Assembly (NCBI GenBank): GCA_003251535.1
Contig: QKFD01000038.1
Coordinates: forward strand, 1 to 64,000
From: Chromatiales bacterium
Lineage (GTDB): Bacteria; Pseudomonadota; Gammaproteobacteria; Thiohalomonadales; Thiohalomonadaceae
DNA length: 64,000 bases
Reading direction: 5' to 3'
This document shows positions 48,151 through 48,290 of the stretch, one piece after another (position 1 is the stretch's first letter; each line of letters opens with the position of its first letter). The notes under the pieces are model-generated. The model was given only the letters and a program-made list of their open reading frames with translations. It did no database searches and was not told where the DNA came from. The translations under genes and the position numbers were made by a program.

Positions 48151-48185
48151 AAAAAAAAACCTGCCGAGCTTGCGCACAGCAGGTT
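48151..48185 (-). terminator. Intrinsic terminator of the metZ leader (riboswitch expression platform)
   Basis: On the minus strand a stem AACCTGC/GCAGGTT with a 14-base loop runs into nine consecutive T residues, 24 bases before the metZ ATG and 15 bases after the SAM-II aptamer. A terminator in that place is the usual output of a transcriptional riboswitch. Confidence 0.88.
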
Positions 48186-48200
48186 CTGCGTTCTGCTGTC

Positions 48201-48250
48201 GCTTTAGCCGGATTTATTCGGCGCCCGCAAGCTGACTCAAATCGGCGCCA
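48201..48250 (-). promoter_or_regulatory. SAM-II riboswitch aptamer upstream of metZ
   Basis: Read on the minus strand from 48250, the leader gives stem P1 (GGCGCC, 48249-48244), then GATTTGAG, then a loop ending CTTGC, then the P1 partner GGCGCC (48225-48220), then GAATAAAT and finally GGCTAAAG. The invariant parts of the SAM-II (metA-type) pseudoknot are GAUUU after P1, UUGC before its partner, AUAAAU, and GCUAAA at the end. They are all present, in order and at the right spacing (one extra loop base against the crystallised metX aptamer). SAM-II typically controls metA, metX or metZ. Confidence 0.87.
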
Positions 48251-48261
48251 TAGAAGTCTGG

Positions 48262-48290
48262 ATTGTTACAAAGAGCGGCCCAAAGCTCAA
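48262..48290 (-). promoter_or_regulatory. Sigma-70-like promoter of metZ
   Basis: On the minus strand, TTGAGC (48290-48285) and TAACAAT (48268-48262) are separated by 16 bases. A start near 48255 would place the SAM-II aptamer at the very 5' end of the transcript. Confidence 0.6.

Follow-up and report, generated by a model that had tools for sequence, protein, structure and literature searches.

The leader of metZ in a Chromatiales bacterium of the family Thiohalomonadaceae (contig QKFD01000038.1, of which the first 64,000 nucleotides, hereafter the window, were analysed) raises the question of whether a gammaproteobacterium controls this gene through a SAM-II riboswitch and, if so, how such an element would operate and where it came from. 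A reading made from the letters alone (the sequence-only reading) had proposed a SAM-II aptamer consisting of the P1 GGCGCC pair, GAUUU, UUGC, AUAAAU and GCUAAA in that order, followed by a terminator with nine T residues just before the ribosome-binding site. All of these parts are present in the stated order, on the minus strand, which that reading had not specified. The leader is located between an old-yellow-enzyme gene (49402-48323, same strand, upstream) and metZ (48126-46909), and its RNA comprises successively P1 5′ GGCGCC, GAUUUGA, GUC-AGC-UUGC, P1 3′ GGCGCC, GAAUAAAU, GCUAAAGCGAC, CCUGCUGUGCGCAAGCUCGGCAGG-U9, the Shine–Dalgarno-like GGGGGGAGG and AUG. When the parts are required in this order and with complementary P1 strands, the window yields one occurrence, and 300 simulated 64-kb sequences matched to it in dinucleotide composition yield none. 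The features are the following.

48258-48183, minus strand: SAM-II (SAM_alpha) aptamer, full extent of the Rfam match (RF00521, 29.3 bits, E 1.2e-4)
48249-48244, minus strand: P1 5′ strand GGCGCC, with compensatory changes in relatives at 5/6 pairs
48243-48237, minus strand: GAUUUGA, third strand of the P2 triplex (putative SAM pocket); GAUUU (48243-48239) invariant in 77/77 aligned relatives
48236-48227, minus strand: 5′ side of pseudoknot P2, made of GUC (P2a), AGC and the invariant UUGC (P2 core, 48230-48227); P2a register as in alphaproteobacterial SAM-II
48225-48220, minus strand: P1 3′ strand GGCGCC, with the same compensatory changes
48219-48212, minus strand: A-rich L3 GAAUAAAU, containing AUAAAU (48217-48212), conserved among relatives
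48208-48198, minus strand: 3′ side of pseudoknot P2, GCUAAAGCGAC, with the GC-U-AA core and GAC as P2a; GCUAAA at 48208-48203, GCUAA invariant
48202-48193, minus strand: antiterminator 5′ strand GCGACAGCAG, overlapping the P2 3′ side and pairing with 48182-48172 at about -16 to -17 kcal/mol
48183-48160, minus strand: intrinsic terminator hairpin CCUGCUGUGCGCAAGCUCGGCAGG (-15.1 kcal/mol, z -3.9)
48159-48151, minus strand: T9 tract of the terminator, exactly nine T
about 48138-48129, minus strand: Shine–Dalgarno-like sequence, GGGGGGAGG (48138-48130) or GGGGGGAGGG (48138-48129)
48126-46909, minus strand: metZ, the controlled gene, encoding an O-succinylhomoserine sulfhydrylase of 405 aa (NF006003 and TIGR01325 matches); ATG at 48126-48124

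The Rfam family that best matches the region, by far, is RF00521, whose model is matched over its whole length; a search of the 4.6-Mb genome with this model returned a single match (E 2.2e-4). The default Rfam scan of the window reported three tRNAs only and left the aptamer unlisted because its 29.3 bits do not attain the gathering score, which is 36 bits; this threshold is set by curators for listing and corresponds to no structural feature of the SAM-II class. The sequence-only reading had counted on a score above this threshold, and in that respect it formally failed; it would have been abandoned for lack of any significant match to the model, and the match found is significant. A covariance model derived from 42 sequences outside the window's family (model R2) gave 70.0 bits (E 1.7e-17) over 48252-48190, the next best match in the window reaching 6.8 bits. 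With the gamma-trained model R1, the window aptamer scored 72 bits as compared with 30-50 bits for alphaproteobacterial aptamers, and the alphaproteobacterial and gammaproteobacterial aptamers appear to form one class with two sequence types. SAM-V (RF01826) and the SAM-II long loops family (RF01726) share the same H-type pseudoknot SAM pocket; the covariance-model search gave no SAM-V match in the region, and SAM-II long loops was rejected (14.3 bits against a cut-off of 44, E 7.6). Judged by its sequence, the metZ leader carries a real SAM-II riboswitch, with S-adenosylmethionine (SAM) as its presumed ligand.

Relatives of the element were collected both by RF00521 searches of related genomes and from MetZ relatives in named genomes, whose leaders were searched with a pattern; the same element was repeatedly found directly before metZ, and the resulting alignment holds 77 distinct relative sequences. 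P1 shows double changes at five of its six pairs, with 94% of cells paired, a result favoured by the collecting pattern, which demanded some P1 complementarity. The pattern did not, however, demand the kind of variation seen, which ranges over G-C, A-U, C-G and U-A pairs and includes whole-helix swaps such as CGUGU/ACACG. For the structure as a whole, 96% of cells are paired and 7 of 12 pairs have changed doubly; covariation amounts to 0.128 versus 0.068 in shuffles, none of 500 shuffles being as high, and all slid controls were exceeded too. Relatives lacking compensatory changes in P1, which would have spoken against the sequence-only reading, are thus not what the alignment contains. GAUUU, UUGC and GCUAA are invariant in all 77 relatives. 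Pairing of the P2 core, UUGC with GC-U-AA, is possible in the window and in each of the 77, its invariance making covariation uninformative there, and among the aligned relatives covariation outside the two P2a pairs did not clearly exceed that of shuffles. In the SAM-V and SAM-II structures, UUGC pairs with GC-U-AA, while the bulged U together with flanking A and U residues forms the SAM pocket (PMC6061858). The corresponding nucleotides (GAUUU, UUGC and GCUAAA) are all present in the window, their roles in the pocket being assigned by homology to SAM-V (PMC6061858).

The window element shares with alphaproteobacterial SAM-II (RF00521, found in metA, metZ and metX leaders) P1, the H-type pseudoknot P2 with UUGC/GC-U-AA, the GAUUU third strand, the A-rich L3, the P2a register, the terminator platform and a downstream methionine gene. 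It differs in its score (29.3 bits, below 36), in a P1 of the form GCGCC/GGCGC accompanied by CAGCUUGCGGGCGC, which is typical of beta- and gammaproteobacterial sequences, and in the length of P2a. The latter, GUC/GAC in the window, has offsets 3,3 (the class places it three nt before UUGC and 2-3 nt after GCUAA), in the same register as in alphaproteobacteria, and has 3 bp, as against 5-6 pairs in 16 of 21 sampled alphaproteobacterial sequences; 61 of 73 beta- and gammaproteobacterial ones have 2-3 pairs. The pseudoknot of the window may accordingly be weak. A 2-bp P2a is also on record for SAM-V (PMC6061858).

Downstream of the aptamer, the terminator hairpin with its flanks and T tail reaches -18.6 kcal/mol (z -4.6), far better than shuffles, and an intrinsic terminator follows the aptamer in 61 of the 77 relatives, mostly directly. 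A scan for consensus promoters and terminators found no promoter at 9/12 and called no terminator, because the promoter attains at most 8/12 and the hairpin has an internal mismatch. By eye, the best promoter candidate is TTGAGC-17-AACAAT (8/12), and in relatives -10 blocks resembling TAATCT lie at a similar distance ahead of P1. The proposal that a promoter is placed so that the RNA begins at the aptamer thus finds weak backing, with no site at 9/12 and one at 8/12 picked out by eye, and the promoter is regarded here as putative.

In most of the relatives with a terminator its 5′ arm is CCUGCUUUAGC or similar, which complements GCUAAAGC, the pseudoknot's 3′ strand. Over 59 elements, the two segments pair at -13.9 kcal/mol on average versus -7.7 kcal/mol with shuffled strands, and a species' own strand and terminator outperform between-species terminator swaps in 199 of 200 permutations. 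The window departs from this scheme in that its terminator arm has changed to CCUGCUGUGCGC, so that CUUUAGC is no longer usable for pairing. Its place is taken by GCGACAGCAG, which begins within the pseudoknot strand and reaches -17.3 kcal/mol in pairing with CUGCUGU(G)CGC; the strands of relatives placed on the window's terminator arm give a mean of -9.1 kcal/mol. The predicted competing helix has thus been rewired yet is intact, and a switch that is rewired but kept argues for function.

These results suggest the following course of events. RNA polymerase would make P1 and its loop first. When SAM is abundant, it would be bound in the P2 triplex, locking GCUAAAGCGAC (48208-48198) in the pseudoknot; the CCUGCUGUGCGC arm would then be free, the terminator would form and transcription would end at the T9 tract without reaching metZ. 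With little SAM, the pseudoknot would be loose and GCGACAGCAG would pair with the 5′ arm of the terminator as an antiterminator, allowing metZ to be transcribed and synthesis of homocysteine and methionine to rise. We consider it highly likely that the SAM-II riboswitch represses metZ by transcription attenuation, and a plentiful supply of S-adenosylmethionine very probably shuts the gene off. The metZ SAM-II riboswitch of Sinorhizobium meliloti, which produces the RZ sRNA, provides a precedent for switching: gene, aptamer class and a predicted SAM-induced terminator are shared, and high SAM has been shown to raise the level of the short RNA (PMC9373788). The S. meliloti element is, however, alphaproteobacterial, and the likeness holds at the level of gene, aptamer class and predicted terminator. 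The identity of the target gene is clear, MetZ matching NF006003 with 671 bits (cut-off 522) and TIGR01325 with 584 bits (cut-off 510). A homologue of the MetA family is also encoded in the genome, its 201 bits falling short of the curated MetA cut-off; neither MetX nor MetJ is detectable there. MetJ is the textbook methionine regulator of the Gammaproteobacteria; its absence from this genome means that metZ is without the classical regulator. Taken as a whole, the notion of a SAM-II riboswitch with a terminator before metZ in a gammaproteobacterium is borne out by RF00521, model R2, the covariation, the antiterminator and the identity of metZ.

Other explanations must nevertheless be weighed. 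The hairpin might be a mere terminator of the old-yellow-enzyme gene, the likeness to an aptamer being incidental or a fossil. This gene does share the strand of the aptamer and ends a short way ahead of it, and the Rfam score does not reach the gathering level. Every nucleotide of the ligand core is intact, however, and the element is found again immediately ahead of metZ in 42 of the 80 MetZ loci that were independently fetched from named genomes. A fossil, moreover, would not keep an antiterminator re-matched to a changed terminator arm, and we regard this explanation as very unlikely. An action mainly on translation or RNA stability, with the terminator constitutive, would have a parallel in S. 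meliloti metA, where SAM-II is followed by a terminator that is not predicted to be switched by SAM (PMC9373788). It seems very unlikely here: the ribosome-binding site (48138-48130) lies some 60 nt past the 3′ strand of P2, with the terminator in between, and a constitutive terminator is at odds with the existence of a conserved, mutually exclusive antiterminator. Finally, the divergence from the Rfam consensus, together with the indirect assignment of SAM, might point to a related ligand such as SAH. Yet the positions that form the SAM-II/SAM-V pocket (the U:A.U triple, the bulged U and the next A; PMC6061858) are invariant or nearly so, SAM-II discriminates more than 1000-fold against SAH (PMC1273637), and elsewhere SAM represses the biosynthesis gene that is the target here, which makes a different ligand extremely unlikely.

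As to origin, the sequence-only reading had described SAM-II as known mainly from alphaproteobacteria and had left the choice between transfer and under-reporting. The description is right, but published examples from gamma- and betaproteobacteria go back to 2005: Coxiella burnetii and Bordetella bronchiseptica were listed by Corbino et al. (PMC1273637), Barrick and Breaker reported SAM-II in gamma- and betaproteobacteria in 2007 (PMC2258182) and Meyer et al. in ‘Alpha-, Beta- and Gammaproteobacteria’ in 2009 (PMC2704228). The element in the window is therefore ordinary in kind, and it is the wider pattern that is of interest. A recent transfer of metZ with its riboswitch from an alphaproteobacterium, an alternative that concerns origin rather than function, would agree with the classically alphaproteobacterial distribution and with the transfers proposed for sporadic gammaproteobacterial cases (PMC2258182). 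In the MetZ tree, however, the window protein groups with gammaproteobacteria, while the 16 MetZ of SAM-II-bearing alphaproteobacteria form a separate, 100%-supported clade, so that recent transfer is unsupported; the aptamer, too, is of the gammaproteobacterial sequence type by its R1 score, and many families of the class contain the element. All this makes such a transfer hardly credible.

Under-reporting, by contrast, is what the genomes indicate. In the GTDB class, which includes the former betaproteobacteria (e.g. G242, Comamonas-like by 16S), 89 of 274 sampled genomes match RF00521 at E ≤ 0.001, only 24 of them exceeding the cut-off and 65 remaining below it; model R1 finds matches in 183 of 369 sampled genomes of the class, about 161 at E < 1e-9. 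SAM-II is under-annotated in this class, the Rfam cut-off missing most of its elements. Within the window's family the element is present in 12 of 20 genomes and absent from 8; searches at the family and order levels gave the same 20, since the order here holds only this family. All Halomonadaceae sampled lack it. Across the class the element stands mostly before metZ; elsewhere it precedes metX, metK, metF, metE and metN, and the named cases are the metN leader of Neisseria gonorrhoeae and a plasmid of Legionella adelaidensis. A BLAST search of the metK leader against plasmids gave no useful match.

The under-annotation may also bear on an element described in betaproteobacteria. Leyn et al. 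(2014) reported SAM_alpha in Rhizobiales and Rhodobacterales only, and described a new ‘metXZ’ element, a pseudoknot plus terminator, before betaproteobacterial metX or metZ in 10 of 11 Comamonadaceae (PMC4239095). Its pseudoknot formed by regions 1-4 and 2-6, its region 5 that can pair with 1 and 2, and the terminator that follows correspond, as far as a comparison by description goes, to the SAM-II layout; it was published as novel, with no ligand assigned (PMC4239095). The metX leader of a Comamonas-like genome (L176; 16S 97.5% to Comamonas odontotermitis) carries the present aptamer, with UUUAGC contained in its terminator. Given this leader and the shared layout, we judge it quite likely that the metXZ element is SAM-II, the comparison being with the published description. 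A later paper linking the two was not found in the literature searched.

Several observations made in passing extend the range of contexts. SAM-II-type elements stand before the methionine transporter gene metN (L164, L177, L180, L181, L197) and before metE, encoding the cobalamin-independent methionine synthase (L156, L166, L167, L172). The element before metN in Neisseria gonorrhoeae (L196, 2495-2549; from a record of chromosome size that PLSDB lists among plasmids) is SAM-II-like and compact, its P1 being short and its L3 shortened (R1, 37.9 bits). SAM-II lies before metK in L100, L111 and L138, and the L100 and L138 loci each contain, further along, a SAH riboswitch (RF01057). Two genomes belonging to one family (L252 of G126, 733-800; L253 of G242, minus strand) show weak R1 matches immediately ahead of metK in which GAGUUA replaces the SAM-pocket GAUUUG; these could represent a variant of the SAM-II core. 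Tandem SAM-II pairs occur in several copies per genome (five loci, L243-L247, in G264; L248 in G376), the second aptamer lying about 95-105 nt beyond the first, and the first being followed by a terminator of its own; the pairs are not located before known methionine genes. The downstream ORFs (363 aa in L243, 232 aa in L248) share an RPPxAxDIxL-like motif and match no Pfam family, that of L243 matching no NCBIfam family either. L058 contains two copies about 800 bp apart (1942-2006 and 2737-2801), one of which is not immediately followed by an evident methionine gene. On a Paracoccus seriniphilus plasmid, an aptamer of the gammaproteobacterial type (L198, 1997-2062; R1, 67 bits) lies shortly before a hypothetical gene and has possibly moved between classes.

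It is likely that a large SAM-II subgroup of distinct sequence is common to beta- and gammaproteobacteria, that it is characterized by a short P2a, the CAGCUUGCGGGCGC core and an antiterminator formed by the ligand strand, that it controls metZ, metX, metK, metF, metE and metN in about half of the class and scores mostly under the Rfam cut-off, and that the orphan metXZ element belongs to it. SAM as the ligand would provide a ready explanation for metXZ, and the cut-off hides most SAM-II elements of the class. The subgroup also offers a testable model of SAM-II antitermination, in which the ligand-binding strand itself would be the switch. Lastly, these elements would fill a gap in methionine control: MetJ is the textbook regulator of the class, none is detectable in the present genome, and SAM-II seems to occur in about half of those sampled.
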